From Gammaproteobacteria bacterium (GTDB lineage: Bacteria > Pseudomonadota > Gammaproteobacteria > UBA6429 > Thiohalophilaceae): a stretch of DNA of 39,100 nucleotides. This document shows, piece by piece, positions 4,108 through 36,299 of the stretch. Under the pieces are notes generated by a model. It did no database searches. It was not told the origin of the DNA and saw only the letters and a program-made list of their open reading frames with translations. A program made the translations under genes and the position numbers. The stretch lies in the NCBI GenBank assembly GCA_026197095.1, contig JAPHTF010000194.1:1-39100 (forward strand). Reading direction: 5' to 3'. The first letter of the stretch is position 1, and each line of letters opens with the position of its first letter.

Positions 4108-6837
4108 CTAATAAATAGTTTGTAATACGGTAGCAACTTGCTTTAGAAAAGATGAAGCATCAATCGGTTTACTCACATAAATAATATCCTTTTCTTCAGC
4201 TTCGCTTTGAGTAATAGTTTCACTATAACCGGTTACTAAAATGACTGGCAGACCAGGTTTTAAGTTACGAATTTTTTCAATTAATTCTGTACCGTTCATT
4301 CCCGGCATGGTCTGATCAGTGATCAGTAAGTCAAATTGGTTTGGATCCGCTTCAAATAACTGCCATGCTTCTGCGCTAGAATTTTTGATAGTGCATTGGT
4401 AATTATGCTCAGTTAAATACTCCTTTATCCATTCAGCAAGTATAGGTTCATCATCAACAATCAGAACTTTTTCACTGTTACCTGTCTCAACTTCTGCAAG
4501 AGGTAACTGATGGCTCTCTTCCTGGCTTATTGAAGACGTATTTATTCCTGGAAAAAGAACATGAAAAGTGCTGCCCCTATTAATTTCAGTATCAATAAGA
4601 ATATGCCCATGATGATTATCGACAATACTATGTATTATTGATAAACCCATACCCGTTCCTTTTGACACCTCTTTAGTTGTAAAGAATGGCTCAAAAATGT
4701 GGTCTATTATGCCAGGAGGCAAACCGGAGCCCGTATCAGACACGGACAGCTCAACCCATGTACCGAGTACTTGCTTATGACACGCCATACATTCATCGTT
4801 AACGTTATGTCTTTGACGAAGCTGAATCGTTAGTGTCCCAGAATTATTCATTGCATCTTTTGCATTAAGACACAAGTTCATAATAATTTGCTGCAGTTGC
4901 ACATAATCCATCATGACTTTCGGAAGATTTTCATCATAATGATAAATTATCTCAATACTGCTCGGTATAATTGAACGTAGCATTTGAAGACTTTCATCAA
5001 TAACTTCTGCTAAATTTAAGGGTTCATTTTTCCCCTGATCTTTACGACTAAAAGCCATCATCTTTTGGACAAGATCGCGAGCTCGATGCGATGCCTGACT
5101 AATATTTTCAAAGTATTTAAGAATTTTCGGATCAAGAGAATCATTATAATTTTCGAGTGCCAGATCACTAAATCCGATAATAATGCTCAGCATATTATTA
5201 AAATCATGGGCAATACCACCAGTCAGCTGACCTAGTGCTTCCATTTTTCTGGCCTGAGTTAATTCTCTCTGCAACCGATTATGTTCTTCTTCATTATGCT
5301 TCCGTTGAGTAATGTCCTGAATAACACCATCCAAACCAACTACATTATTATTCGAATCAAGCTTTACCTCTCCTTGCTCATAAACATAACGAACCTCACC
5401 GTCAGCACGCATAATTCGATATTCTAATTGGTAACTATCTTTAGTTTGTAAGACATTTTCAGTTAATGCACGAAATTTATTTTTGTCATCAGGATGAATG
5501 CTTTTAACATATGCATCGTAGCTTGGTGTAAGTTCAGAAGGTGTATGGCCGACAATCCGGTAAAGCTCGTCTGACCATGTTGTTATATTGTTATTGATGT
5601 CCCAGCTATAATTTCCGATATTAGTAATTGCCTGGGCCTGATTAAGATTTTGTCTCTCAACCAGCATTTCTTTTGTTGCATCATTGATTAGTTGTCCCAA
5701 TTCCTGTTCTTTATAAGTGGATGCACGTATCTGATGATTTTTACGCGCCAATATAATTAAAAAAATCACCAGCGAGACGATGAGAAGTAACGTTAATCCA
5801 ATAATAATACCTAATATGATCGTTCGGTTGCGTTGATAAAACGACAGGGGTTTATTTAGAATAACAGACTGACTTTCTATACTTTCTGGCAGCACTAAAT
5901 TTTTTTTAGTTAATTCAATATGGTCAAAAATATATTCATTCGAACTTTCTGTTACCGCCTTAACTGTACCGATAATACGATTTTTTTGAAATTCAATCGC
6001 CAGCTCTGCAGCAGTTTTACCCTGAAGCCTGCCGCTCGTAACATAACCACCTAACACTCCCTTTTGAAGATAATTATCCTCCATGCTTATTATTGTAAAA
6101 TCACCCACATGAGCAATTAGTGAGATAGTGTTTTTTAGTGTTTGTGTATTGCCGCTTGAGTCTGTTATTTGTCCCAGAGTAGTAAGAAAAATATATTTCT
6201 CTTTATGTTGTTTTAGTGCTTTTGTCAAATCACCTATCTTTTGTTCTGCAATATAGTGCGCGGTTATGTTTGGATGCTTTTTAAGTTGTAATTTAATTTC
6301 TTCTTCAATTACACGATATGTGCTGGAAGCATCACCAACTACAATAATCTCGTTAAAGTCTGGATCTAAAGCTTTTAGAATTTCAATATTTTTTGAAATA
6401 TCTTTTTTTTCATAAACACCGGTAACCCGTGAAGGGTCAAGTTGATCCTGCAAACTTAAATTATTAATTCCTGAAAATATAATCGGCACAGATTTAAACA
6501 AATCATTAAAGTATTCTAACGCAAAGGTAAGAGAATCATCATCAGTTAAATATATAAGATCTGGAGTATAACCAGCATATTTTTTTTGCAGATATCGATA
6601 AAAATCCTCTTTATACTCCTTATTAAATTTTCTACGTTTAGTATCCAGGTATTCTGAGCTGATTAATGATGATTTATTTGTCGTTGCATAATAGTTTTCT
6701 GTAAACCCATTATGCTGATTTTTTGTCCATGGATATTCCTGGCTATAGGAATGCAAGACAAATATTTGATAGGGATTTGATGCCCCGCTTGTTGCCCAAT
6801 ACGCCGTTAATATAAAAAATAAGAGGGTTCGCAGCAT
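4108..6837 (-). CDS. Hybrid sensor histidine kinase with periplasmic ABC-substrate-binding-like sensor, PAS and receiver domains
   Basis: The 909-residue protein has a signal sequence or first membrane segment (about 3-18), a periplasmic sensor (about 20-335) beginning YQIFVLHSYSQEYPWT that resembles the ABC-transporter substrate-binding-like PF04392 group, and a membrane helix (about 340-363). A PAS_3 domain (about 405-510) is followed by HisKA with phospho-acceptor His544 (GGIAHDFNN) and HATPase_c (NAKDAM, DTGSG, GTGMGLS). The C-terminal receiver has Asp795-Asp796, phospho-acceptor Asp841, Thr869 and Lys890. A CMACH motif at 683-687 interrupts the ATPase domain. No dedicated response regulator is adjacent, so the output is unknown. 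The ligand is unknown; small organic molecules are typical for this sensor class. The ribosome site is weak. Confidence 0.93.
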   Translation of the reverse strand: MLRTLLFFILTAYWATSGASNPYQIFVLHSYSQEYPWTKNQHNGFTENYYATTNKSSLISSEYLDTKRRKFNKEYKEDFYRYLQKKYAGYTPDLIYLTDDDSLTFALEYFNDLFKSVPIIFSGINNLSLQDQLDPSRVTGVYEKKDISKNIEILKALDPDFNEIIVVGDASSTYRVIEEEIKLQLKKHPNITAHYIAEQKIGDLTKALKQHKEKYIFLTTLGQITDSSGNTQTLKNTISLIAHVGDFTIISMEDNYLQKGVLGGYVTSGRLQGKTAAELAIEFQKNRIIGTVKAVTESSNEYIFDHIELTKKNLVLPESIESQSVILNKPLSFYQRNRTIILGIIIGLTLLLIVSLVIFLIILARKNHQIRASTYKEQELGQLINDATKEMLVERQNLNQAQAITNIGNYSWDINNNITTWSDELYRIVGHTPSELTPSYDAYVKSIHPDDKNKFRALTENVLQTKDSYQLEYRIMRADGEVRYVYEQGEVKLDSNNNVVGLDGVIQDITQRKHNEEEHNRLQRELTQARKMEALGQLTGGIAHDFNNMLSIIIGFSDLALENYNDSLDPKILKYFENISQASHRARDLVQKMMAFSRKDQGKNEPLNLAEVIDESLQMLRSIIPSSIEIIYHYDENLPKVMMDYVQLQQIIMNLCLNAKDAMNNSGTLTIQLRQRHNVNDECMACHKQVLGTWVELSVSDTGSGLPPGIIDHIFEPFFTTKEVSKGTGMGLSIIHSIVDNHHGHILIDTEINRGSTFHVLFPGINTSSISQEESHQLPLAEVETGNSEKVLIVDDEPILAEWIKEYLTEHNYQCTIKNSSAEAWQLFEADPNQFDLLITDQTMPGMNGTELIEKIRNLKPGLPVILVTGYSETITQSEAEEKDIIYVSKPIDASSFLKQVATVLQTIY

Positions 6838-8478: not shown

Positions 8479-11253
8479 TTATTCCTTCAAAGAAAATTGA
8501 AATGGATGCTTAATAATTTCAAAATCATCAGCATAAAAAATGCGAATCACTTCAGGCTTACCGTATATTGAAGTCATGCCTAACCACTTTTTAGGTAACA
8601 ACTTTATTTTTTCTTTGTCTTCTTTTGACATTCCCCATGTATGATATTGTTTTTCATTAATTCGATCATTCATGGTCGTAAGGATTGAACCGTCTTTTGC
8701 AAGCGGCATAAACCGCACCACTTTATCCACAGGGCCTTGAATGTCAATATACGTATTCCAGTCTTCAAACGCAGAGATATTCGCAACAATACCATTTTCC
8801 GTTTTCTTTATAACACCTAACTCGTCTGCATCAAGTTCAAAGTATTTTGGTTGTTTTGGAAAGCGAACAGTTAATGAGCCCTTTACCATACTGACTTTTT
8901 TATTCTTAAGTTCTTCCTTATCTGAAAACACTTTTACATAGGCGGCATGTAATCTTCGATTTATAATTTCCCAGTCTTTTTTCACCTTATTATAATTAGT
9001 ATCAAACTTGTAATCGAAATCAGCTTTTTCGTTTTTATCAAATGCTATTTCTTCGCCGCTCTCTGTTATTACCGAGTCAATACTTAACACACCGGCAGAA
9101 AGGTCATTGAGCAAAGCTTCACCATAAGGTGCTATTACATCAAAGTCTCCGCCAACTTTCTGGCCCCATTGATCACCAAATTTATTTAAACAAACCAGGA
9201 ATACACCGAGTGCGACCTTTTGTTTATCTTTACATTCATCTTGATATTTAACCCTTGCATGCTCTTTCAAAAATTGGCTTTTAGAGGTAAACATAACATC
9301 GACCTGTTTTCCATTACCTTTTTTACCATAGCGAGGGGTAACCTGATTAATTTCAAAAGGATAGTCCTGGCTCTTCATTTGTCCTGCAACAACAACTTCA
9401 ATAGAAGCCACTTTTCCTTTAAAACGTTTAGATACCATTTTTGTACCTTTACCTGAGGCACTACTGCTAGCACTTGCTAAATACTGACCTTTCGCATTCT
9501 TCGCCCTAACGGCCATGATATAACTCATGTCACCACTTAATGTATATTTAACCGTACTCGGTGTGTTCTTTTGAAGATACATACGTACCTTATCGGTCTC
9601 TATCGTCTTACCAGAGAAAGGTAACTGTAGCTTCACTACACTCGTGCGTGTTGCAGCGCGTATTGACATTTTTCCTTTTATTTTAGAAATTTTAGAAACC
9701 GGTACATTTGGCTTTAACCTGACACTTTTCTTACCAGAAACCTTAATTGATTTTTCAAGCCATTGACCATTGACGTACTCTTTATCTCGAATCGTCGACA
9801 GTGATTCAGCAACAAGGTTACGGGTCTTACCGCACAACTCCTCTCTTAACAGATCATTACCATCTTTATCTTCAACACCTGTAATTGACAAGCTTGCAAC
9901 TGGCGTCTCATTCGATTGATGCATGTGATCGACTGACAAATTATCAAAACCTTTTCCTTCAGCATTTATCGTTAATTCTATTATTGAGTTATCTGTCGCT
10001 AATAAGCCGAACCTCTCTAATCTAACAGCAAGTGGACCCACCACATGATCGGGTTTATGAAAAGCATCCTTTACATCAAAAGGCTGAACCGATGCAAAGG
10101 CAAACTGCGGGATATAATTCTCTACATCACTATCACTAACGATCTGTTCAGTACCCGTGTCGCCTTCTTTTGTACCATCACCAAATGCACCTGAAAATGC
10201 CATTTGCAAAAATTCACCGGGCACCTTTTCAAGATTGTCTAAGGTTTTTCTATTGGCAACTGTTTTAAAGCGCAGAATATTTCCATCCGCCTGAACGCTT
10301 AAGGCCTGTAACAGCGAAGCCAGCGTAGGCATTTCTTTTAACTCAGCCAGCGCTTCATTGAGCCAGGCATCATACTTTGTTTTAACTTCTAGCGGCCAGG
10401 CCGCTTCAATGGCATGAGCATCAACCAGCAAGGTAAAGCCTGGCGAAGGTAAAAAGCTTACCACTGCACCAGCATAAATATCCGTTAAAGGTTGATTAGA
10501 AAGTGCACCTAAAAGTAAAGCAGAGGGGAGATCTACCGCGCCTTTTTTAGCCTCTTTGGGTGTCATAAATGCACCCGCCACGGCTTTCTCTTTTCTAAAC
10601 GCCCGCCATTTAGTAAGTGATATCTCAGCACGTGCATTAGCGGCAAAGCGCTTAAGAAGAACAGGCATCATTTCCGGGCCAGACAAGATAATGCGATCAT
10701 TTTTTATATGCAGGGCGTGTTGCTTTGGCGCAGGTTTTTTTGCGGCTGGGTCTGCACAGGGATCACTTTTTTTATCTTGTTCAATATTCTGCGTAATTAA
10801 CCAGTAACCGTCAGTACCCTCGTCTATAGCATAATACTGAGCAATAGCTTTCTTTAATTTAGCCTGCGAAAAACGTCCGAATAACACAACAGTATGCGCC
10901 GGTTTTTCTTCAGCAACATTAAGTGTCGCTAATGCATAATCTGTGTCAGAAACTAAGTGAACACCCTGTTCTTTTAATTTTTCTAAAAATGTTTTTTCTT
11001 CTTTAGATTCATCTGATTTTGAAACTGGCAGAGGAGAAGGATCGTTCATTTGCTTGAACATGCTTTCAATATGACGAACATAAGTCATGTCAACACTGGT
11101 AATCGCAATGGTACCTGATGTAGCAATAGCCTCTTCAGCATTCATCACTTTTGCCGGAAGGTCTTCTGGCGTAATTGCTTTTAAAAAAAGGAAGTATGCG
11201 CCCCCTGCTATGAGACCAATAAGAACCACAAGTGTAATGATGATCCGTTTCAT
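8479..11253 (-). CDS. Large membrane-anchored protein of unknown function (924 aa)
   Basis: I do not recognise the family. The N-terminus has a single membrane anchor or uncleaved signal (about 4-25, IIITLVVLIGLIAGGAYFLF), so nearly all 900 remaining residues should be periplasmic. The first half has helical stretches with a short Lys/Pro/Ala linker near 170 (DPCADPAAKKPAPK). The second half is rich in predicted beta strands and lysine (VSGKKSVRLKPNVPVSKISK). Cysteines are few. No catalytic motif is evident. An AGGA ribosome site lies 7 bp before the ATG. It appears to be the first gene of a unit with the SnoaL-like protein and the exported MBL hydrolase. The frame is intact with no internal duplication I could see. 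Confidence 0.85.
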   Translation of the reverse strand: MKRIIITLVVLIGLIAGGAYFLFLKAITPEDLPAKVMNAEEAIATSGTIAITSVDMTYVRHIESMFKQMNDPSPLPVSKSDESKEEKTFLEKLKEQGVHLVSDTDYALATLNVAEEKPAHTVVLFGRFSQAKLKKAIAQYYAIDEGTDGYWLITQNIEQDKKSDPCADPAAKKPAPKQHALHIKNDRIILSGPEMMPVLLKRFAANARAEISLTKWRAFRKEKAVAGAFMTPKEAKKGAVDLPSALLLGALSNQPLTDIYAGAVVSFLPSPGFTLLVDAHAIEAAWPLEVKTKYDAWLNEALAELKEMPTLASLLQALSVQADGNILRFKTVANRKTLDNLEKVPGEFLQMAFSGAFGDGTKEGDTGTEQIVSDSDVENYIPQFAFASVQPFDVKDAFHKPDHVVGPLAVRLERFGLLATDNSIIELTINAEGKGFDNLSVDHMHQSNETPVASLSITGVEDKDGNDLLREELCGKTRNLVAESLSTIRDKEYVNGQWLEKSIKVSGKKSVRLKPNVPVSKISKIKGKMSIRAATRTSVVKLQLPFSGKTIETDKVRMYLQKNTPSTVKYTLSGDMSYIMAVRAKNAKGQYLASASSSASGKGTKMVSKRFKGKVASIEVVVAGQMKSQDYPFEINQVTPRYGKKGNGKQVDVMFTSKSQFLKEHARVKYQDECKDKQKVALGVFLVCLNKFGDQWGQKVGGDFDVIAPYGEALLNDLSAGVLSIDSVITESGEEIAFDKNEKADFDYKFDTNYNKVKKDWEIINRRLHAAYVKVFSDKEELKNKKVSMVKGSLTVRFPKQPKYFELDADELGVIKKTENGIVANISAFEDWNTYIDIQGPVDKVVRFMPLAKDGSILTTMNDRINEKQYHTWGMSKEDKEKIKLLPKKWLGMTSIYGKPEVIRIFYADDFEIIKHPFQFSLKE

Positions 11254-13020: not shown

Positions 13021-13037
13021 TGCACCAACATAGTTCA
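13021..13037 (+). promoter_or_regulatory. NtrC-like binding site upstream of the 54-aa ORF
   Basis: TGCACCAACATAGTTCA compares with the NtrC consensus TGCACCA-N3-TGGTGCA: the left half matches 7 of 7 and the right half 5 of 7. Its centre is about 169 bp upstream of the start inferred from the sigma-54-like element at 13171-13186, a plausible distance for an enhancer. The same left half occurs upstream of the FNT gene and of cynS. Confidence 0.42.
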
Positions 13038-13170
13038 TATTAAACGAGCCAGAACCAAGCTGGTTCAATTTTAACTATTTTTCAATGCAGCACTATTTAA
13101 AGATTCTTTTTTAACCCTCTTATCTAATTGATTATACGAGAAAAAATATTCACATCTAAAATTAATAACA

Positions 13171-13186
13171 TTGGCATAAATAATGA
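13171..13186 (+). promoter_or_regulatory. Sigma-54-like promoter element with imperfect -12 (weak)
   Basis: TTGGCATAAATAATGA has a good -24 half (TTGGCAT) and the right spacing to a -12 dinucleotide that reads GA instead of GC. It would start transcription near 13198, 29 bp before the 54-aa ORF. It closely resembles the element before cynS (TGGCATAGATAATGC), which is why I list it despite the mismatch. Confidence 0.35.
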
Positions 13187-13226
13187 AAGGAGTAATGTGC
13201 ACTAAACAAAAACATAGGAGAAGCAA

Positions 13227-13391
13227 ATGAATAATTCGATTAACTACTCAGGTTTTGTAGAAATGTATATAGATTCATCCGATGATTTTGAGCCCTACGG
13301 TTATAGCGTCTTAGATGCAGAAATAGAAAACGCACAACATTCTTTACATCTTAAAGCAGCAGGTATAAATGATATTGAACACGGTGAATAA
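13227..13391 (+). CDS. Small acidic protein of unknown function (54 aa)
   Basis: The ORF begins MNNSINYSGFVEMYI and continues DSSDDFEPYGYSVLDAEI, ending GINDIEHGE. It has an AGGAG ribosome site 7 bp before the ATG and normal codon use. It is strongly acidic (about 11 Asp/Glu against a single Lys), has no membrane segment or signal peptide, and I recognise no family. It stands alone between regulatory motifs: an NtrC-like box and a sigma-54-like element upstream, and a perfect 14-bp hairpin 15 bp after its stop. A small nitrogen-stress protein is a reasonable guess, not a demonstrated role. Confidence 0.65.
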   Translation: MNNSINYSGFVEMYIDSSDDFEPYGYSVLDAEIENAQHSLHLKAAGINDIEHGE

Positions 13392-13406
13392 ACAACAGGC
13401 GAGATA

Positions 13407-13443
13407 GCGTGCAATTAATCATAAACAAGGATTAATTGCACGC
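13407..13443 (+). terminator. Perfect 14-bp hairpin after the small acidic ORF
   Basis: GCGTGCAATTAATC (13407-13420) and GATTAATTGCACGC (13430-13443) are exact reverse complements around a 9-nt loop. It begins 15 bp after the stop codon of the 54-aa ORF. No T tract follows on either strand, so it may be a 3' stabiliser or a U-less terminator rather than a classic intrinsic terminator. Confidence 0.55.
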
Positions 13444-13693
13444 AAACCCATTTATGAAAAGTTACCAGGTTCAAAACACTTTTATTTTTTAACTCCAATT
13501 TTCTATTAATAAAATATTTTCCCCGGCCCTAAATTTTTAATCAGAACGACCTCCCCCTTTATTATAATTAACTTTGTTTACCCAACCCCTTTCAGCTCTA
13601 TTGATTTTCATTTACATGATTCGAGTTAAATTTATTTATAATGAATAATCAGTATTTAATTTCAAACAAGCACCAATAAGGACATTACTCTCA
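13444..13693. other. AT-rich intergenic region upstream of the FNT gene
   Basis: No credible gene is seen: a 63-codon minus-strand frame at 13636-13827 has no ribosome site and overlaps the promoter elements. A weak second NtrC-like half-site, AGCACCA, starts at 13669, about 30 bp (three helical turns) upstream of the better site. Confidence 0.5.
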
Positions 13694-13698
13694 TTGCA

Positions 13699-13715
13699 TG
13701 CACCATTTTGCAGCA
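13699..13715 (+). promoter_or_regulatory. NtrC-like binding site upstream of the FNT gene
   Basis: TGCACCATTTTGCAGCA compares with TGCACCA-N3-TGGTGCA: the left half matches 7 of 7 and the right half 5 of 7. Its centre is about 85 bp upstream of the transcription start predicted by the sigma-54 element at 13765-13780, a standard enhancer distance. Confidence 0.55.
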
Positions 13716-13764
13716 AATAATTTGAAAAACACGCTGAAAAACGCCGTAATACATAAAAACTCTC

Positions 13765-13780
13765 TTGGCATAATACTTGC
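13765..13780 (+). promoter_or_regulatory. Sigma-54 promoter of the FNT gene
   Basis: TTGGCATAATACTTGC matches the sigma-54 consensus TTGGCAC-N5-TTGC closely, with exactly 10 bp between the -24 GG (13767-13768) and the -12 GC (13779-13780). Transcription should begin near 13792, giving a leader of about 56 nt before the ATG at 13848. Confidence 0.75.
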
Positions 13781-13847
13781 GATACGGAATGAAATAGAGA
13801 AGTAATCTTAATCACAACGTTACTCATACATAGAAAGAGGTTTTGTT

Positions 13848-14657
13848 ATGTCATATTTAGAACCGCAAGAGTTCGTCACAAAAATGGTGGATGCAGGCGA
13901 ATCCAAAGTTTACATGTCCACAAAAGATACGTTAATTCGTGCTTTTATGGCCGGTGCAATTCTGGGACTTGCCGCTATCTTTGCCATTACCGTTGCAGTT
14001 AAAACGGGTTCACCACTAACGGGCGCCATCCTGTTCCCTGTTGGATTCATTATGTTGTACTTAATGAAATTCGACCTGCTCACAGGTGTATTTACGCTTG
14101 TACCACTTGCTCTTATTGATAAGAGACCGGGCGTCACCGTTAACCAGATACTTAGAAACTGGGGACTGGTATTTGTTGGTAACTTTGCAGGTGCATTAAC
14201 AACGGCGTTTATGATGTCATTTATACTTACCTACGGGTACAGTATTGATGGTGGCGCCATTGCTGCGAAAGTGGCGAGTATCGGTGAATCCAGAACAGTC
14301 GGTTACCAGGCGCATGGAGCAAGTGGTTGGATGACTATCTTCATTCGTGGCATGTTATGCAACTGGATGGTTTCAATGGGTGTTGTAGGCGCAATGATTT
14401 CAACTTCAGCAACTGGCAAAATGTTCGCCATGTGGATGCCTGTTATGCTGTTCTTCTTTATGGGCTTTGAGCACTCAATTGTAAATATGTTTTTATTCCC
14501 GTTCTCTATGATTATGGGTGGTGACTTTACAATAGTTGATTACTTAGTTTGGAATGAAATACCAACAGTATTAGGTAACCTGGTGGGTGGTTTTGCCTTA
14601 GTAGCATTACCTTTATACTTCACTCACGTAAGAACTAGTCCAAACCGTGCGTTATAA
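13848..14657 (+). CDS. Formate/nitrite transporter (FNT) family anion channel
   Basis: The 269-residue protein has about six membrane helices and the FNT hallmarks: FDLLTGVF (75-82) at the first half-helix and loop, CNWMVSMGV (171-179), and GFEHSIVNMF with the central channel histidine at 209, as in FocA. FNT channels pass formate, nitrite, hydrosulfide or similar small monovalent anions. The sigma-54/NtrC-type promoter and the next genes (a PP2C/kinase fusion of the type found beside nitrate-assimilation genes, and cyanase) point to a nitrogen anion: nitrite most likely by precedent, cyanate as a tempting alternative. It ends in a strong terminator. Ribosome site: GAAAGAGG upstream of the ATG. 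Confidence 0.93.
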   Translation: MSYLEPQEFVTKMVDAGESKVYMSTKDTLIRAFMAGAILGLAAIFAITVAVKTGSPLTGAILFPVGFIMLYLMKFDLLTGVFTLVPLALIDKRPGVTVNQILRNWGLVFVGNFAGALTTAFMMSFILTYGYSIDGGAIAAKVASIGESRTVGYQAHGASGWMTIFIRGMLCNWMVSMGVVGAMISTSATGKMFAMWMPVMLFFFMGFEHSIVNMFLFPFSMIMGGDFTIVDYLVWNEIPTVLGNLVGGFALVALPLYFTHVRTSPNRAL

Positions 14658-14690
14658 TATGTAAAGCACATTACAATAAGGTAAATAATG

Positions 14691-14721
14691 TCTCAGCTCT
14701 TTTTAGGGCTGAGATTTTTTT
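14691..14721 (+). terminator. Intrinsic terminator between the FNT and PP2C/kinase genes
   Basis: TCTCAGCTC and GGGCTGAGA form a 9-bp stem (one G-U pair) around a 6-nt loop, followed directly by seven T residues (14715-14721). It lies 33 bp after the FNT stop and only 4 bp before the ATG of the next gene, so that gene's only apparent ribosome-binding region lies inside the stem. Confidence 0.85.
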
Positions 14722-14725
14722 AAAT

Positions 14726-16462
14726 ATGCCAAACCAGTTAAAAATCTCATATGGCCATCACACTGACAAAGGCCGTAAAAAAATCAATCAAGATTTTCAT
14801 GACATTCATATTCCCAATGAACCCTTACTGAGCTCAAAAGGTATTGCAATAGGACTTGCGGATGGAATCAGTAGCAGCAATGTCAGCCAGATTGCCAGTA
14901 AAACAGCCATTACAGGATTTTTAGAAGATTATTTTAGCACTGCAGAATCCTGGACAGTTAATACGTCAGTGCAGCGAGTACTACTGGCGACAAACTCATG
15001 GCTTTATTCACAGACCCGTGGCAGTCAATATCGTTATCTGCAGGACAAAGGCTATGTATGCACCTTCAGTTCATTAGTACTTAAATCTAATACCGCGCAT
15101 ATTTTCAGCGTAGGTGATACACGCATTTATCGCCTCAGCGATAACCACCTCGAACAACTAACAGAAGATCACAGAGTCTGGGTTTCAAAAGATAAAAATT
15201 ATCTTCAGCGTGCATTAGGTATGAAGGATTATATTGATATTGATTATCAATCATTAGCAATAGAAGTCGATGATATTTTTATTCTCGCTACAGATGGCAT
15301 TTATGAATTTGTAAATGAAAAATTTATTATCGAGACGACTAAAGAACATAAGGATAATTTAAACCATGCTGCCAAACTCATACTTGATAAAGCATACGAA
15401 AATGGTAGTGACGATAACTTAACAATACAAATTATCAAAATTGATGAGCTCCCCTTGCAGAACGTTGATGAAGTCTATCAACAATTAACAACGTTACCCT
15501 TCCCACCTGAACTGAAACCACGAATGATATTCGATGGTTTTGAAGTTATTCGTAACATACATTTTAACAGTCGTAGTCACATTTACCTGGCGATTGATAC
15601 AGAAACAAAAGAACAGGTTATTATAAAAGCCCCCTCTGTCGATCTGAGAGAAGATGCGACATACCTGGAACGTTTCCTTATGGAAGAATGGGTTGCACGC
15701 CGTATTAACAACGCACATGTTTTAAAACCCTGCTTACAAACCCGGAAACGAAATTACTTATATATCGTTACCGAGTTTATTGAAGGTAAAACGTTATCGC
15801 AGTGGATGATTGATAACCCAAATCCCGAGATCGAAGAAGTTCGTAATATCATTGAACAAATTTCTAAAGGCTTGCGTGCATTTCATCGGCTGGAAATGCT
15901 ACATCAGGATATACGTCCCAATAACATTATGATCGATAAAACAGGTACAGTGAAGATTATTGATTTTGGCTCAACCCGGGTAGCCGGCTTAAGAGAAATT
16001 TCCTCACCTCTTAGCCATCAAAATATACTGGGTACTGCACAATATACTGCACCAGAATATTTTCTTGGAGAAACAGGCACATCGCGTTCAGACATGTTTT
16101 CATTAGGTATTATTGCTTATCAAATGCTATCAGGAAGGTTACCTTACGGTGCAACCATCGCAAGAGCACAAACAAAATCGGCTCAACGCAGATTAATTTA
16201 TCAATCAGTATTAGACGATGATCGTACCATCCCGTCCTGGATTGATGGCGCGATAAAAAAAGCGGTTAATCCAGATCCGTATAAACGATATGAAGAAATA
16301 ACAGAGTTTATTTATGATCTCCGCTATCCAAATAAAGCGTTCTTAAATAAAACACGTCCACCATTGATCGAACGTAGCCCGGTATTATTCTGGAAAAGCT
16401 TATCCTTTATTCTTTTTATTATCATCATTACATTACTGCTTACCCATCCCAATTTAAATTAA
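14726..16462 (+). CDS. Bifunctional PP2C phosphatase / Ser-Thr protein kinase, C-terminal membrane anchor
   Basis: This 578-residue fusion has an N-terminal PP2C domain (about 5-240) with metal-binding motifs NQD (21-23), ADG (45-47), GDT (130-132), TDG (189-191) and DDN (229-231). The protein kinase domain (about 270-530) has the ATP lysine Lys301 (IIKAPS), catalytic loop HQDIRPNN (Asp395, Asn400), DFG (413-415) and APE (442-444). The glycine-rich loop is degenerate (IRNIHFNSRSHIYLA has no glycine). A single membrane helix at about 558-573 anchors it facing the cytoplasm. Such fusions occur beside nitrate/nitrite transporters in pseudomonads and marine bacteria, so the FNT channel is the natural candidate target. 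No good Shine-Dalgarno precedes the ATG, and no better in-frame start is seen upstream. Confidence 0.93.
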   Translation: MPNQLKISYGHHTDKGRKKINQDFHDIHIPNEPLLSSKGIAIGLADGISSSNVSQIASKTAITGFLEDYFSTAESWTVNTSVQRVLLATNSWLYSQTRGSQYRYLQDKGYVCTFSSLVLKSNTAHIFSVGDTRIYRLSDNHLEQLTEDHRVWVSKDKNYLQRALGMKDYIDIDYQSLAIEVDDIFILATDGIYEFVNEKFIIETTKEHKDNLNHAAKLILDKAYENGSDDNLTIQIIKIDELPLQNVDEVYQQLTTLPFPPELKPRMIFDGFEVIRNIHFNSRSHIYLAIDTETKEQVIIKAPSVDLREDATYLERFLMEEWVARRINNAHVLKPCLQTRKRNYLYIVTEFIEGKTLSQWMIDNPNPEIEEVRNIIEQISKGLRAFHRLEMLHQDIRPNNIMIDKTGTVKIIDFGSTRVAGLREISSPLSHQNILGTAQYTAPEYFLGETGTSRSDMFSLGIIAYQMLSGRLPYGATIARAQTKSAQRRLIYQSVLDDDRTIPSWIDGAIKKAVNPDPYKRYEEITEFIYDLRYPNKAFLNKTRPPLIERSPVLFWKSLSFILFIIIITLLLTHPNLN

Positions 16463-16473
16463 TAAATTGGAAT

Positions 16474-16496
16474 AGATAATCAATAATTTATTATCT
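16474..16496. terminator. AT-rich hairpin between convergent kinase and cynS genes
   Basis: AGATAAT (16474-16480) and ATTATCT (16490-16496) form a 7-bp stem with a 9-nt loop in the 41-bp gap between convergent stop codons. It could act weakly in both directions. The stem has just one G-C pair. Confidence 0.35.
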
Positions 16497-16503
16497 TTAG
16501 AAA

Positions 16504-16947
16504 CTACCAGGATTTATAAGGTAAGAATTTACCATTCAACGTTACTACAACACGATCACCGGCAGGATTTTCTTCTTTATCAATATCCATCGTGAAATCA
16601 ATCGCACTCATAATACCGTCACCGAACTTCTCATTAATAATTTCTTTAATGGTTTCACCATAAACACCAACGATTTCATACCAGCGATAAATAACCGGAT
16701 CTGTCGGAACAATTTGATCCCATGTTTTAGTCGGAAACTCTTGCAACGCAGCAGAAAGTTCTGCACCCATACCTAAAATTTCAGCAACTGAATCAGCTTC
16801 TGCTTTATCTAAGTGATTCATTCCCAGGCAAGCAGAACAAGTGTATTCAGTTGATAAACCTGCTTTTTCAGCAATCGCGCTCCAGGTTAAGCCTTTCTCT
16901 TTTTTTAACTCAAGAATTACTTCTTTCATTTCACTTTTTTTCATCAT
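16504..16947 (-). CDS. cynS: Cyanase (cyanate hydratase)
   Basis: Cyanase decomposes cyanate with bicarbonate to ammonia and CO2, giving usable nitrogen and detoxifying cyanate. The 147-residue protein has the N-terminal helix-turn-helix-like domain (LTWSAIAEKAGLS) and the C-terminal catalytic region IYRWYEIVGVYG...EKFGDGIMSAIDF. The catalytic triad of the E. coli enzyme (Arg96, Glu99, Ser122) corresponds to Arg88, Glu91 and Ser114 here, and the C-terminus GKFLPYKSW is typical. AAGGA lies before tandem ATGs at 16947 and 16944; either could be used. It has its own sigma-54/NtrC-type promoter and converges on the PP2C/kinase gene. No cynA-type ABC cyanate importer or carbonic anhydrase is nearby. 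Confidence 0.97.
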   Translation of the reverse strand: MMKKSEMKEVILELKKEKGLTWSAIAEKAGLSTEYTCSACLGMNHLDKAEADSVAEILGMGAELSAALQEFPTKTWDQIVPTDPVIYRWYEIVGVYGETIKEIINEKFGDGIMSAIDFTMDIDKEENPAGDRVVVTLNGKFLPYKSW

Positions 16948-16992
16948 CTTTTCCTTAAAGAATTTATAGTTAGCAATACATGTATATACACC

Positions 16993-17009
16993 AGCATTAT
17001 CTATGCCAT
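16993..17009 (-). promoter_or_regulatory. Sigma-54 promoter of cynS
   Basis: On the minus strand ATGGCATAGATAATGCT shows TGGCAT with exactly 10 bp between the -24 GG (17007-17006) and the -12 GC (16995-16994). The predicted start is near 16982, about 35 nt before the cynS ATG. The -12 block reads ATGC rather than TTGC, otherwise the match is good. Confidence 0.65.
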
Positions 17010-17069
17010 GTATTAAGTTGTTGTATTTACTAGGTTTTAAGGGTAAGAAAAATGTGGAATCAAATAAGC

Positions 17070-17086
17070 TGCACCACTATGGAGCA
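17070..17086 (-). promoter_or_regulatory. NtrC-like binding site upstream of cynS
   Basis: On the plus strand TGCACCACTATGGAGCA matches TGCACCA-N3-TGGTGCA at 13 of 14 specified positions. It is the best NtrC box in the window. The centre is about 96 bp upstream of the predicted cynS start. A further half-site TGGTGTA follows immediately (17087-17093). The box is nearly palindromic, so strand is nominal. Confidence 0.65.
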
Positions 17087-17147: not shown

Positions 17148-17576
17148 TTAATTGTTTAAATAATTCACCAGGGCATCAAGTTCATTATCCGATAACTCTT
17201 TATATCTTTGCTTCAATCTTCGAATACTATCCGGCAATAAACCCTGCAAGCTATCTGAACCAATAATCCAGTTACGTAACTCTTCAGCAGTACGTCGGGT
17301 GCCAACGCCATCTAATGGGGTACGTGGATTTCCTTTGCCTGCAATAGAGTGACAAGCAGAGCAGTTTTGCTCCTGATAAATCTTTCGTCCTTCTTCAATC
17401 TGTATTGAATCAGGATTGACAGATTTCTTAACTATATCAGATGAAATCTGTTGTTCGTTTTTTTGTGCTTTAGAAGTCGTATGTGGGTTTTGAATCAAGG
17501 CAAACACCATGGCCAACAATAAAACGATTAGCCCGGTAAAGAGTGCGATTAGCCTGGCCCATTTTTCACGCATCAC
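17148..17576 (-). CDS. Membrane-anchored monohaem c-type cytochrome
   Basis: The 142-residue protein has an N-terminal membrane anchor (about 9-28), a linker, and a class-I-like cytochrome c domain (about 60-142) with one haem site CSACH at 72-76. The downstream pattern LDGVGTRRTAEELRNWI and LSDNELDALVNYL matches the small cytochrome c domains usual in gammaproteobacterial electron chains. No methionine occurs after the haem site, so the usual sixth ligand is missing. It starts 9 bp after the flavocytochrome gene, implying electron transfer between the two proteins in the periplasm. Confidence 0.9.
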   Translation of the reverse strand: MMREKWARLIALFTGLIVLLLAMVFALIQNPHTTSKAQKNEQQISSDIVKKSVNPDSIQIEEGRKIYQEQNCSACHSIAGKGNPRTPLDGVGTRRTAEELRNWIIGSDSLQGLLPDSIRRLKQRYKELSDNELDALVNYLNN

Positions 17577-17585
17577 TTATTTTCC

Positions 17586-18905
17586 TTAAACCATATCGAA
17601 AAGTTCAAAATGAACACGGCCCAATGGCACCTTAAGATTATGTAGCCCCTGCTGTACAGCATTACTCATAGGTTTTGGCCCGCATAAAAAATATTCATAC
17701 TCTTGTGCTTCTTTAAGTAAAACCTTTTGCAGCAACTCCGGTGTTACAAAACCTGATTCTCCATTCCAGCCAGGTGCGGGTTCTTTAAGGACATGCACCA
17801 GGTTTAAATTAAGCCGTGTTTTCAATGTATCCAGCTCTTCTTTAAAAATCACGTTGTCCCAGCTGTCATTAGCATAAATAAATAACAACGGGCGTTGCTC
17901 ATGTCGGTCAGCCATCGTACGTAACATGCTCATGATTGGCGCTGCACCTATACCACCCGCAATAAAAACAAAACCCGGTGCAGCTGGATAACAATCTGTA
18001 CTAAAAACACCGTATGGCCCATCTAAATAGGCTGTTTCACCAACTTGCGTATCTTTAATAGTACGCGTGAAGTCACCTAGTGCTTTAATCGTAAAGGCGA
18101 CTTTGCCTTGTTGCGCCGCACTCGATGAAATAGAAAAAGGATGCTCTTTAATGTGAAAGGGAGATGCCCGTAAAGTTAACCAGGCAAACTGACCGGGGTT
18201 AAAATTAATCCCTTTATGATGAATCGGCTCCAGCACCAGGGTGCAGCAGTTGTTGCATTCTTGTTGAACCTCAACAACCCGATAGGGCCTGTTGTGCATT
18301 TGCCAGGGTTTAACCAGCCGTACATAAACAATAAGTAAAAGCCAGAATATAATATAACTTATCCATAGAGCATGTTTAACAGGCGCATCAATGTAATAGC
18401 TTACGCCTTCTATATGTCCCAGCGCCAGTATGAACCCCATTGTAGACAAGCCGATGTGTAACATCCGCCATTCATCATAATGAATTTTTAAACGCTTGCG
18501 CCAAAGTGAAGTAATGATAATGGTCGCAAATAATAAAAACGCGAGTCGACCAAGTGTCATATACCAGGGGGCTTGCAATGGATTAAGCGCACCCAGCACC
18601 TCAGCCCTGTTTATTCGGATAATGAGATAGTGGACAACAATAAAAGTAAGCGCCATGACGCCAAGATAACGATGGAAGAAGTAAACAATGTCGATACCAA
18701 AAGGGGTGACAACACGGCGAAAGCGTGCAGTTAGAATAAACTGGACACCCATCATAGCTATGGCAGTAAAGCCAAGTGCCATAGAGAAATCCCACCAAAA
18801 CCCGGAACCCGGTGGAACCGGTCCAAGCAAAAGCACAAACAAGGGTGCAAAGACTATAGCCAGGTAAATGCTAATCCAGTAAATAGCCGAAGATATTTTG
18901 GTCAT
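17586..18905 (-). CDS. Ferric-reductase-like transmembrane flavocytochrome with FAD/NAD(P)-binding domain
   Basis: The 439-residue protein has an N-terminal ferric-reductase-type membrane domain (about six helices within 1-215) with paired haem-binding histidines in HRYLGVMALTFIVVHYLI and MLHIGLSTMGFILALGH. The C-terminal half is a ferredoxin-NADP-reductase module: FAD motif HPFSISS (about 255-262), pyrophosphate motif GGIGAAPIMSMLR, and NAD-binding YFLCGPKPMS. This is the NOX/Fre-like architecture that moves electrons across the membrane. The acceptor is uncertain; the adjacent c-type cytochrome suggests one. A GAAGAG ribosome site precedes the ATG. Confidence 0.92.
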   Translation of the reverse strand: MTKISSAIYWISIYLAIVFAPLFVLLLGPVPPGSGFWWDFSMALGFTAIAMMGVQFILTARFRRVVTPFGIDIVYFFHRYLGVMALTFIVVHYLIIRINRAEVLGALNPLQAPWYMTLGRLAFLLFATIIITSLWRKRLKIHYDEWRMLHIGLSTMGFILALGHIEGVSYYIDAPVKHALWISYIIFWLLLIVYVRLVKPWQMHNRPYRVVEVQQECNNCCTLVLEPIHHKGINFNPGQFAWLTLRASPFHIKEHPFSISSSAAQQGKVAFTIKALGDFTRTIKDTQVGETAYLDGPYGVFSTDCYPAAPGFVFIAGGIGAAPIMSMLRTMADRHEQRPLLFIYANDSWDNVIFKEELDTLKTRLNLNLVHVLKEPAPGWNGESGFVTPELLQKVLLKEAQEYEYFLCGPKPMSNAVQQGLHNLKVPLGRVHFELFDMV

Positions 18906-33751: not shown

Positions 33752-34130
33752 CTGGTGCTCCCTAAGAATAATGTTCCATGTAATAAGGAGCATAAAGCAT
33801 CAGCGCAAGTATGTAAAAATAAAAACATATAAAAAGTGTGAGCTAGCGAATACATTTAACTGCTTTGAAAAGAAGCACTCAATAAGGTTAGTACATCCAT
33901 AAATTATCTTAGTTTAATAATAGTAAAATTAAATCACGCCGAAAACATCTTTCTCCTTAATTTATATTTTTTATAATCCAAAATTTTAGCCAAAACATGA
34001 ACCTGTACTCATTAATAAATTATTATCATTAAATTTTGTGATGCACCTGAATGTTAATTCTCGATGTGTCGCCTACTGTTACATATAGCAACAGGATAAT
34101 TTTTTGCATTTTAGATTACAGGTGACAGTC
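33752..34130. other. Intergenic region between divergent secreted-protein genes
   Basis: About 380 bp, AT-rich, carrying the promoters of the two divergent genes. I found no ORF, no clear sigma-70 hexamer pair I would trust, and no strong palindrome. Confidence 0.5.
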
Positions 34131-36299
34131 ATGAACTATTTCATTAAGTTTGTATTAATCGGTTTTTCATTTTTATGCACAAGCCTTTCAATTGCTGAAC
34201 CTGTTATTCTAAAATCAATGTCAGCTCCCGCAGCAACTGAATTTAGCACCGTTAATGGCATTATAGGTTTGAATTCAGAGTCTTTATCCGGTGGGACTAT
34301 TTCTGTTGAAACTGGAAGTTATTCCCAGGAAACACCGCTTGAAGCTAATGGCAACTTTAATCTCACAGTAGCGGCAAATAGTCTCTATACCATTAAGGCA
34401 ACCTTAGGACTAAATGCAGCACTTCCTGATGTAACCGCATCATTCAAAAATTACCCTGCTTTATTACAAGGTGAAACTCGAACACTTGACTTAAGACGTC
34501 CATCTGGCCAGCTATTGGGCCAAGTCAATGTCATTGGCGGTACTGCACAAAATATTTCGTTATTTATCACGGCAACCTCAACAACGGCGGGCATTACTGA
34601 ACAATATAATGCCAATAGCGAGGTAAACCTGGTGGGTAGCCAATCACCCGAGGTTTTATTCGCCTTTCCCGCAAATATAGTGAGCATCGTTTCTGGTCGA
34701 ATACAAATTACCAGTACAAATGGATGTATATTGAATGAAACGTTACCACCCAAATCAATCATTCTGACTGACAAGGCATCAGGGACAACACTCCCTGATG
34801 TGCAAAACTGGACTGTTGATGTAACGAGTGCCAGCTGCAATGCAGGCAGTATTAGTGGAGAAATTCATCTTAGTGGACTCGATACATCTGCCACATTAAG
34901 TGAACACCAATTAACCTTTATTGGTAGTGAATTTATTAACCTTAACCTCACTTCATTTGGTACTTATAAAGTAGATCCCATTACTGAAGGAGAATATTCC
35001 ACATCACAAACCAGTTTCTTTGATGAGCCCTATTCAAGTTTACGTTATCCCAACGAAAACGTTATCGTGAAGGGCGACACTATTTTCAATACAAGCTATC
35101 CCGTTGGTACTTCACATGGCGTAGTTAAACTTAACGGTGACTGGAATTTTTCACAAACCATAGCAGCCAATATAGAAGCAAGTGGTTCTCTACCAGGTTC
35201 AACATCTGACTCATTATCCGCAAATGATATTATTAACCCGGTTGACGGCAGTTTTGATTTCATACTGATAAACGGAAACTGGCAAGCAAATAGTTACGAC
35301 TTTAACTTCGAATCTGTAGTAAATACACGGAAGGACAAAGAAACGTTGAACGTCGAACTACTACAAGATAGTTTGACGAATAATCATAGTATAAGTGAAG
35401 GTAGTTCTGTAAACCTGGCACCGGTATCACTAAATACGGCCATGGCTGAGATTGTGTTGCTTGTTGAGCAAACGCCCGGACAAGCACTGAATACGATTGA
35501 GAAGCTATTCATTAATGGCAACAGCAATATCATCGATCCTGGCAGCAATGTTGTCATTGGTAAAAGTTCAATCCGTGCAGACAGCACCGGTACGCCAGAA
35601 AGTGAGTTTAAATTTACCTTGTATGGTTTACCGGGTATATACACATTAACCGCAAGTGGAACAGGATCGGATGGCCGCATATATTCAGCCACCTTTAACG
35701 TCACACTCGGTACTATCCCTCCTCCTGACAATGAAGATGATAAGGGAACCATGGCTTGCTTTGGCATTAATAAAGTAAAACTGCATCAGCATGATGAACA
35801 CAATAAATATGAATTCAGTAAAGACAAACTTTATATTAAATATGCTGGATTCAGATTGCCTGATGATGCCATTGTCGATTTAACACAGGATAATGTCTCG
35901 ATCACCATTGACGGCAAGGTTTATGATTTCCCTGTAGGTACATTTAAGCAACATAATAATAAACAACACTACCATTACAAGTCTGCAAAAGGTCAACTAC
36001 CTAACGTTAAAGTTGATATCGATTTTAAAAAAGCGAAATGGAGCATAAAGCTTAATAAGGAAGACACCAGTTACATCGACAATTCAGATGGTGTTGATAT
36101 TTCTTTATCTATAGCAGGTTATACAGGTAATGAAAACGTAATACTGAAAAGTAAAAATAAACACCATGATAAGCTTATATATAAACGCAAACCCAAACTC
36201 GATTGCCGTATTAAGAACAAAGAAAAACATGAAGATGATGATAAAGATGAAGATGAAGATGATAAAGAAAGTAATGACGTAGACAACGATGACCAGTAA
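34131..36299 (+). CDS. Large secreted protein of unknown function with acidic C-terminal tail (722 aa)
   Basis: The start at 34131 (MNYFIKFVLIGFSFLCTSLS...) follows AGGTG by 6-7 bp and is preferred over an upstream TTG at 34104. A signal peptide ends near SIA-EP. The mature protein is rich in Ser, Thr, Asn and Gly with alternating strands, suggesting repeated beta-sandwich (carbohydrate- or Ig-like) domains. The region after GTIPPPDNEDDKG marks a change to a His/Lys-rich segment (KVKLHQHDEHNKYEF) and then a tail with about 16 Asp/Glu in the last 24 residues. No catalytic or sorting motif is evident. Calcium binding or cell-surface function is possible. The family is not recognised. Confidence 0.8.
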   Translation: MNYFIKFVLIGFSFLCTSLSIAEPVILKSMSAPAATEFSTVNGIIGLNSESLSGGTISVETGSYSQETPLEANGNFNLTVAANSLYTIKATLGLNAALPDVTASFKNYPALLQGETRTLDLRRPSGQLLGQVNVIGGTAQNISLFITATSTTAGITEQYNANSEVNLVGSQSPEVLFAFPANIVSIVSGRIQITSTNGCILNETLPPKSIILTDKASGTTLPDVQNWTVDVTSASCNAGSISGEIHLSGLDTSATLSEHQLTFIGSEFINLNLTSFGTYKVDPITEGEYSTSQTSFFDEPYSSLRYPNENVIVKGDTIFNTSYPVGTSHGVVKLNGDWNFSQTIAANIEASGSLPGSTSDSLSANDIINPVDGSFDFILINGNWQANSYDFNFESVVNTRKDKETLNVELLQDSLTNNHSISEGSSVNLAPVSLNTAMAEIVLLVEQTPGQALNTIEKLFINGNSNIIDPGSNVVIGKSSIRADSTGTPESEFKFTLYGLPGIYTLTASGTGSDGRIYSATFNVTLGTIPPPDNEDDKGTMACFGINKVKLHQHDEHNKYEFSKDKLYIKYAGFRLPDDAIVDLTQDNVSITIDGKVYDFPVGTFKQHNNKQHYHYKSAKGQLPNVKVDIDFKKAKWSIKLNKEDTSYIDNSDGVDISLSIAGYTGNENVILKSKNKHHDKLIYKRKPKLDCRIKNKEKHEDDDKDEDEDDKESNDVDNDDQ

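Follow-up and report, generated by a model that had tools for sequence, protein, structure and literature searches.

A putative NtrC/sigma-54-controlled module of FNT channel, kinase/phosphatase and cyanase in a gammaproteobacterium

Results

Genes of the locus

Contig JAPHTF010000194.1 (C126) of a Gammaproteobacteria bacterium in the Thiohalophilaceae carries side by side the genes for an FNT channel, a fused PP2C phosphatase/Ser-Thr kinase (called the kinase below) and the cyanase CynS, the last on the opposite strand. The window that we analysed is the entire contig of 39,100 bases, one of 201 in a genome of 3.12 Mb. A first-pass annotation had read these genes as a nitrogen-starvation cassette, and profile searches found all three where it had placed them (Table 1). 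cynS is flanked by the kinase gene and by genes for a cytochrome c and a ferric-reductase-like protein, and no ABC importer genes adjoin it as they would in a CynABD-type operon. The accompanying statement that no nrt importer is present held for the window open reading frames (ORFs) examined; elsewhere in the genome, nrt-type ABC genes lie beside nirB on contig C165.

Table 1. Positions of the module genes, their putative control elements and a nearby small ORF in the window.
Feature	Position	Strand	Evidence
NtrC-box-like site of FNT, TGCACCATTTTGCAGCA	13699-13715	+	2 mismatches
Sigma-54-type promoter of FNT, TGGCATAATACTTGCG	13766-13781	+	1 mismatch; start-to-start distance from the NtrC box 67 bp
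FNT channel, NirC-alpha type	13848-14657	+	PF01226 218.8 bits (cut-off 34.6)
Intrinsic-terminator-like hairpin with T run	14690-14723	+	14655-14735 folds at -20.6 kcal/mol, z -3.35
Bifunctional PP2C phosphatase/Ser-Thr kinase, C-terminal hydrophobic helix	14726-16462	+	PF00069 133.7 bits; PF00481 41.5 bits (cut-off 20.3); PF13672 35 bits (cut-off 24)
Cyanase, cynS	16504-16947	-	TIGR00673 164.2 bits (cut-off 113.3); NF002773 207.9 bits (cut-off 150)
Sigma-54-type promoter of cynS, TGGCATAGATAATGCT	17008-16993	-	1 mismatch; pairs with the NtrC box at 17070
NtrC box of cynS, TGCACCACTATGGAGCA (as read on the + strand)	17070-17086		1 mismatch
54-aa ORF	13227-13391	+	judged outside the module

NtrC and sigma-54 sites

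Sites were scored against the consensus sequences TGCACCN5GGTGCA for NtrC and TGGCAYN5TTGCW for sigma-54. Taken singly, neither class rose much above chance: the window contained 4 NtrC-like sites compared with 1.33 expected (at least 4 in 4 of 100 shuffles), and 6 sigma-54-like sites compared with 4.57 expected (at least 6 in 36 of 100 shuffles). The ordered combination, an NtrC box followed by a sigma-54 site 20-180 bp away, is not due to chance: the window had two such pairs, compared with an average of 0.02 over 400 dinucleotide shuffles, where one pair occurred in 8 and two in none. The first-pass annotation had claimed three such units. The FNT and cynS units stood; the third, before the 54-aa ORF, was weak and failed the pair definition, with 2 mismatches in its NtrC box at 13021 and, as we read it, 2 in its sigma-54 element at 13172, one of them at the -12 GC.

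Both regulators are encoded in the genome, NtrC at 750.2 bits (cut-off 558.6) and RpoN. Genome-wide, there were 77 NtrC-like places with up to 2 mismatches compared with 55 for the reversed pattern, and 297 sigma-54-like places with up to 1 mismatch on both strands compared with 117. Nine places matched the NtrC consensus with at most 1 mismatch: one each before glnA, ntrB and cynS, two before nirB, one in intergenic DNA of contig C23 and three inside ORFs (C115, C151 and C155). By our estimate about 7 would be expected by chance at this genome size, and it is therefore the position of the nine, not their number, that is informative. The proposed NtrC/sigma-54 control of FNT and cynS is supported by the ordered box and promoter, the presence of both regulators, the boxes at glnA, ntrB and nirB, and a promoter kept in relatives (see below).

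The genome contained 11 exact sigma-54 matches, four of them on contig C165, where one starts 60 bp before the start of narK. The nirB gene of this contig has both NtrC and sigma-54 sites. C165 (loci L038 and L138) also carries genes for an nrt-type ABC binding protein, permease and ATPase, a small Rieske protein, NarK with its own PP2C/kinase paralogue, and a molybdopterin-type, nitrate-reductase-like protein that fell below the NasC and formate-dehydrogenase cut-offs; between the genes for the reductase and the Rieske protein lies one for a DsrC-like protein.

Pairing of channel and kinase

Relatives were sampled as the best 80 loci, by similarity to the window kinase, of at least 574 relatives in species genomes. 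Picked in this way, they represent the FNT-linked branch and not all kinases; loci from genome searches included about 1.5 kb on each flank, so that farther neighbours are missed. FNT adjoined the kinase or was separated from it by a single cynS in 78 of the 80 loci (in L107 FNT is divergent), and one of the two misses, L114, starts at a contig end. Hosts included Gamma-, Beta-, Alpha- and Zetaproteobacteria, Sulfurovum and a metagenome-assembled genome of the Verrucomicrobiaceae.

A search of 58 genomes, our own included, gave the closest full-length kinases of other genomes (L003-L010, 61-81% identity), and FNT was immediately upstream in 8 of 8. The next kinases fetched, L011-L030, had NarK upstream in 19 of 20; L020 and the distant L031 showed neither transporter. 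One NarK-linked kinase of the same family is present in the window's own genome. On a quick kinase tree, which flags some long branches, 117 copies with a called partner (92 FNT, 25 NarK; 5 others uncalled) required 2 partner changes, compared with a shuffled mean of about 23. Kinase phylogeny follows the transporter partner.

The same pairing was seen from the side of the channel. Among 29 FNT loci of a longer list, taken from a phylum sample with our own genome left out, a kinase was present in 11 of 11 with at least 67% identity to the window FNT and in 0 of 18 with at most 42%. A set of 30 FNT loci, which shares 7 genome places with those 29, showed a kinase in 27. The kinases of L010 and L079 are identical, so that the two loci probably stem from a single genome present in two collections; the 80 loci include L079, and the FNT tree and the 31 hairpins given below include both.

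Promoter conservation in relatives

We scanned 350 bp upstream of FNT in the 80 loci together with L003-L010, of which 81 were usable. A sigma-54 match with at most 1 mismatch was found in 37 of 53 cases where FNT leads the tracked genes, compared with 5 of 28 FNTs located behind nirB, nirD or cynS and 23 of 326 control genes from the 80 loci (Fisher p = 4e-23 versus control genes and 1.5e-5 versus internal FNTs; G+C was 0.46 upstream of leading FNTs and 0.54 upstream of controls). NtrC-like boxes with at most 2 mismatches showed frequencies of 13 of 53, 4 of 28 and 10 of 326, respectively.

Enzyme neighbours

Two kinds of enzyme gene, cynS and nirB/nirD, were sought throughout the loci. cynS was part of the module or adjacent to it in 21 of the 80, upholding the expected recurrence of FNT-kinase-cynS synteny across genomes, in five arrangements: FNT-cynS-kinase (12), FNT-kinase-cynS (3), cynS-FNT-kinase (3), divergent cynS before FNT (2) and the convergent order of the window (1, L118). 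nirB and/or nirD was close in 27 loci, two of them also with cynS and one (L071) as a partial match only, and 34 had neither. Mapped on a quickly built FNT tree (89 rows), the cynS label changed 18 times, with at least 5 changes forced by well-supported branches in comparison with nir. None of 500 shuffles gave as few changes, so the label is clustered as well; together these results indicate both inheritance and repeated gain or loss.

A sample of the class gave a cynS match in 37 of 274 genomes. Among the best 30 of 39 cynS matches, FNT and/or the kinase was adjacent in 12 (our own included; the kinase in 10), an nrt/cyn-type ABC ATPase was present in 7 (with a permease in 6), a weak ABC ATPase match alone in 3, and none of these in 8. 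None of these best 30 of 39 loci combined the FNT/kinase module with an ABC importer within about 1.5 kb.

Six plasmid records were also examined. In one from Acinetobacter and one from Sulfitobacter the kinase is accompanied by cynS (the start of the Sulfitobacter record truncates its FNT), a Comamonadaceae record has nirB-nirD-FNT-kinase, a second Acinetobacter record has nirB, nirD and a partial, unannotated cynS match near FNT-kinase, and the Azospirillum and Methylobacterium records have FNT-kinase alone.

The window cyanase contains the motifs YRWYE and GIMSA, which may hold the catalytic Arg, Glu and Ser known from the E. coli enzyme. Several loci encode a diverged NirB before FNT (L039 4189-6627 and similar), with 34-37% identity to Comamonadaceae NirB. 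The diverged form exceeded the TIGR02374 cut-off in the two cases tested, and it is also the NirB of our own genome (L138 6965-9514).

Features of the channel

The central pore His and Thr of FNT proteins (FocA H209 and T91) are conserved: H209 and T79 of the window numbering were invariant in 89 of 89 aligned copies. The window FNT scored below the NCBIfam cut-offs for TIGR00790 (141.3 against 232.3 bits), FocA (133.6 against 290.1), NirC (50.1 against 293) and FocB (38.8 against 499). A 2017 FNT survey tables for NirC-alpha, in FocA numbering, Val 212, Phe 79, Leu/Val 90, Gly 92, Val 93, Arg/Lys 37 and 167, and Glu 208 (PMC5525234). When placed by alignment with FocA, the window FNT agreed with NirC-alpha at all 8 of these, which are among the 15 positions in Table 4 of that survey: V212, F67, L78, G80, V81, R31, R167 and E208. 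The Gly that the survey reports at FocA 86 in 91.9% of the subfamily (PMC5525234) is replaced by Lys74, at the start of the omega loop.

Position 74 was Gly in 61, Lys in 26 and another residue in 2 of the 89 aligned FNTs. Lys74 was found in 12 of 28 cynS-linked FNTs, 3 of 26 nir-linked FNTs and 15 of 45 linked FNTs with neither neighbour (cynS- versus nir-linked, Fisher p = 0.015 with kinship ignored). Lys74 is a candidate marker of cyanate channels at most, given its share among FNTs with neither neighbour. By sequence, the best solved match of the channel was the low-CO2 inducible protein LCIA, at 92.8 bits. Four candidate phosphosites in the N-terminus, Thr11, Ser24, Thr25 and Thr28, were conserved and separated kinase-linked FNTs (99) from distant unlinked ones (18).

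Features of the kinase/phosphatase

Public records already label this protein a bifunctional kinase/phosphatase. The AlphaFold model (pLDDT 82.3, pTM 0.60) was searched with Foldseek: the kinase domain matched PknB, and the best match of the PP2C domain was tPphA, whose family presumably comprises PII phosphatases. Both PP2C profiles scored over their cut-offs, and the metal-binding residues D23, D46-G47, D190-G191 and D230 were present in all 117 partner-called copies. None of the catalytic kinase residues K301, E320, D395, N400 and D413 was lost in any of the 92 FNT-linked copies, the window's among them, or of the 25 NarK-linked ones. The glycine-rich GxGxxG loop was not conserved in these proteins, with mostly His, Phe, Ser or Asn at 279 and 281 and Ser or Thr at 284. 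A Pfam search showed no PASTA domain in the window kinase. At its C-terminus the model has a helix, 552-573, that its hydrophobic sequence suggests may be a membrane anchor.

Hairpin between channel and kinase genes

The hairpin fills part of the 68-bp gap between FNT and the kinase and ends just before the kinase start. Among the other loci, 31 of the 69 gaps between FNT and kinase held a similar hairpin, compared with 1.4 expected from single-base shuffles (10 per gap). They also occurred in 4 of 12 FNT-cynS gaps and 1 of 3 NarK-kinase gaps; none was seen in cynS-kinase (0 of 7), nirD-FNT (0 of 13) or cynS-FNT (0 of 3) gaps.

The 54-aa ORF and other features

The first-pass annotation had included the 54-aa protein in the cassette, an assignment that we rejected: in 4 of 4 relatives the fetched stretch showed no FNT, kinase or cynS (L234 lies near a contig end). 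The ORF, matched at E <= 1 in 11 of 40 family genomes (our own among them), is one of a small family (window region 13172-13391; L234-L237) whose members start with MNNSINYSGF or similar. All four relatives have one copy with a TGGCATAAA element 52-104 bp upstream, at 1-2 mismatches to sigma-54 and with no FNT near; L237 has a second copy that lacks the TGGCATAAA element.

Directly past cynS, on the same strand, genes for a small cytochrome c and a ferric-reductase/NAD-binding protein occupy 17148-18905. Elsewhere in the window are a hybrid histidine kinase whose ABC substrate-binding domain may be its sensor (4108-6837), a 924-aa ORF with no Pfam or NCBIfam match at E 0.001 (8479-11253) and a 731-aa ORF with no Pfam match at E 0.001 (34104-36299). 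An integron integrase is encoded on contig C151 of the same genome (L140 239-1651).

Discussion

The explanation that best fits the locus as a whole, to which we assign a probability of about 0.5, is a nitrogen-scavenging module under NtrC and sigma-54, in which the channel feeds cyanase and the kinase/PP2C protein controls the transporter. When nitrogen is short, phosphorylated NtrC at 13699 and 17070 would activate sigma-54 polymerase at 13766 and 17008. To judge from its gene context, the FNT channel would admit cyanate and probably nitrite too, and cyanase would convert cyanate and bicarbonate to ammonia and CO2, the established reaction of its family. The PP2C/kinase, with its C-terminal helix as a presumed membrane anchor, may reversibly phosphorylate the neighbouring transporter and so shut uptake quickly upon the return of ammonium or a build-up of the anion. 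Its near-constant pairing with FNT or NarK suggests that the transporter is its target. The hairpin after FNT would hold the kinase below the amount of the channel, so that the channel would be made in excess.

A number of observations weigh against this explanation. The channel bears residues of NirC-alpha, a nitrite-channel subfamily according to the FNT survey (PMC5525234), nirB/nirD is near the module in the 27 loci noted above, and the clustering of the cynS label means that much of the FNT-cynS association is inheritance. NitM, one studied nitrite FNT, from cyanobacteria, was not inhibited by 10-fold cyanate (PMC4390861). The nrt-type ABC genes on C165 mean that FNT need not be the sole entry. 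Pairing has exceptions: the 452 bases upstream of the kinase in L056 contain no FNT, no kinase was found within about 1.5 kb in L203, L223 and L232 (54%, 65% and 73% identity to the window FNT), and the FNT-cynS loci L150 and L161 also have none. The candidate phosphosites are not consistently lost without a kinase: L150, L203, L223 and L232 keep most of them, and L161 alone loses most. By the rule used, 38 of the 69 FNT-kinase gaps have no hairpin. The kinase lacks the glycine-rich loop and has HQD instead of HRD, so that its kinase activity is putative.

The strongest rival explanation takes FNT as a nitrite channel for a nitrite reductase encoded elsewhere, with cynS merely a second NtrC-controlled neighbour. 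The NirC-alpha pore residues, the nir genes near the module (partial in L071) and the NtrC and sigma-54 sites of the genome's own nirB all fit this account, as does the indifference of NitM nitrite uptake to cyanate (PMC4390861). It is harder to reconcile with cynS in or beside 21 of the 80 modules, between FNT and kinase in 12 of them, with the repeated and in part forced changes of the cynS label on the FNT tree, and with the separation of module and ABC importer in the best 30 of 39 cynS loci. We regard the nitrite-only account as a serious but rather doubtful one. The first-pass claim that the channel imports cyanate or nitrite finds partial support, from gene context. Transport of bicarbonate, the co-substrate of cyanase, or of formate would be suggested by LCIA as the best solved match; that similarity is low, the promoter is of the nitrogen type and the enzyme partners recognised in relatives, of which only cynS and nirB/nirD were sought throughout, are all nitrogen enzymes, which makes this substrate assignment highly improbable.

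The target of the PP2C/kinase could also be another protein, such as PII, NtrB/NtrC, cyanase or nitrite reductase, with the transporter simply sharing its operon. The tPphA fold match points in this direction, and no FNT phosphosite could be tied to the kinase. The enzyme gene, however, varies among cynS, nirB/nirD and neither, whereas the transporter is the usual neighbour, FNT or NarK according to kinase clade; we consider another target unlikely. That chance neighbours have acquired chance motifs would agree with the near-random number of each single motif class in the window, yet it is contradicted by the pair statistics, the conserved promoter and synteny in 78 of 80 loci, and its probability is negligible.

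Parts of this module have precedents. FNT (focA/nirC) adjoins cynS in Nitrospira, Nitrososphaera gargensis and other nitrifiers, and the authors suggest cyanate import on the basis of gene order, as far as the accessible parts of these papers go (PMC10753782, PMC6311188, PMC12342949). The idea of FNT as a cyanate importer, which the first-pass annotation had thought might be new, was rejected as a novelty because these proposals are in print. The adjacency of FNT and cyanase is the same there, and the available portions mention no kinase/phosphatase or NtrC/sigma-54 promoter. The cynFABDS operon of Pseudomonas pseudoalcaligenes CECT5344 is ammonium-repressed and has a putative sigma-54 promoter (PMC6627978); it shares the sigma-54-type cyanase promoter with the window, and it has the CynABD importer and the regulator CynF where the window has FNT and the kinase/phosphatase. 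FNT-cynS adjacency, the cyanate-import proposal and a putative sigma-54 promoter of cynABDS are thus already known, and a kinase partner is not mentioned in the accessible text of those sources.

NirC-alpha (PMC5525234) and NitM (PMC4390861) are of the same family with nitrite-reductase neighbours; the window FNT shares tabled pore residues with NirC-alpha and differs in Lys74 and in its cyanase and kinase neighbours. The words kinase, cyanase and cyanate are absent from the main text of the FNT survey (PMC5525234). Among the open-access papers listed for it, none concerned an FNT-kinase/phosphatase pair by title or abstract opening, and the gene name PA1782 was absent from the 15 in which it was sought.

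The folds of PknB/Stk1 kinases and Stp1/PphA PP2Cs are both seen in the model of the window protein; here they are fused, with no PASTA match and a degenerate glycine loop, and linked to a transporter. In plants, a PP2C phosphatase is part of the control of the nitrate transporter NRT1.1 by the kinase CIPK23. Nitrogen anion transport is controlled there by phosphorylation (PMC7348705); the likeness is functional and the system unrelated, and in the window both domains are in one bacterial protein whose family is linked to FNT or NarK. Cyanobacterial ABC importers of nitrite/cyanate are shut post-translationally on ammonium addition, as the NitM study reports (PMC4390861), which documents in other systems that control of this kind is needed.

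These comparisons lead us to suggest, tentatively and at somewhat less than even odds, that single-chain kinase/phosphatase switches dedicated to transporters are widespread in Proteobacteria and some other phyla, with an FNT branch for cyanate and nitrite and a NarK branch for nitrate. They would be an independently evolved bacterial counterpart of plant nitrate-transporter phosphorylation, with dosage set by the hairpin. If the kinase does switch the transporter, it would add a post-translational layer of nitrogen control beside PII/Ntr. The FNT-cynS gene order is widened from nitrifiers to many Proteobacteria, with the added partner of a one-chain kinase/phosphatase that remains beside the transporter as the enzyme partner varies. 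The module bears on how cyanate may enter bacteria that degrade it without CynABD.

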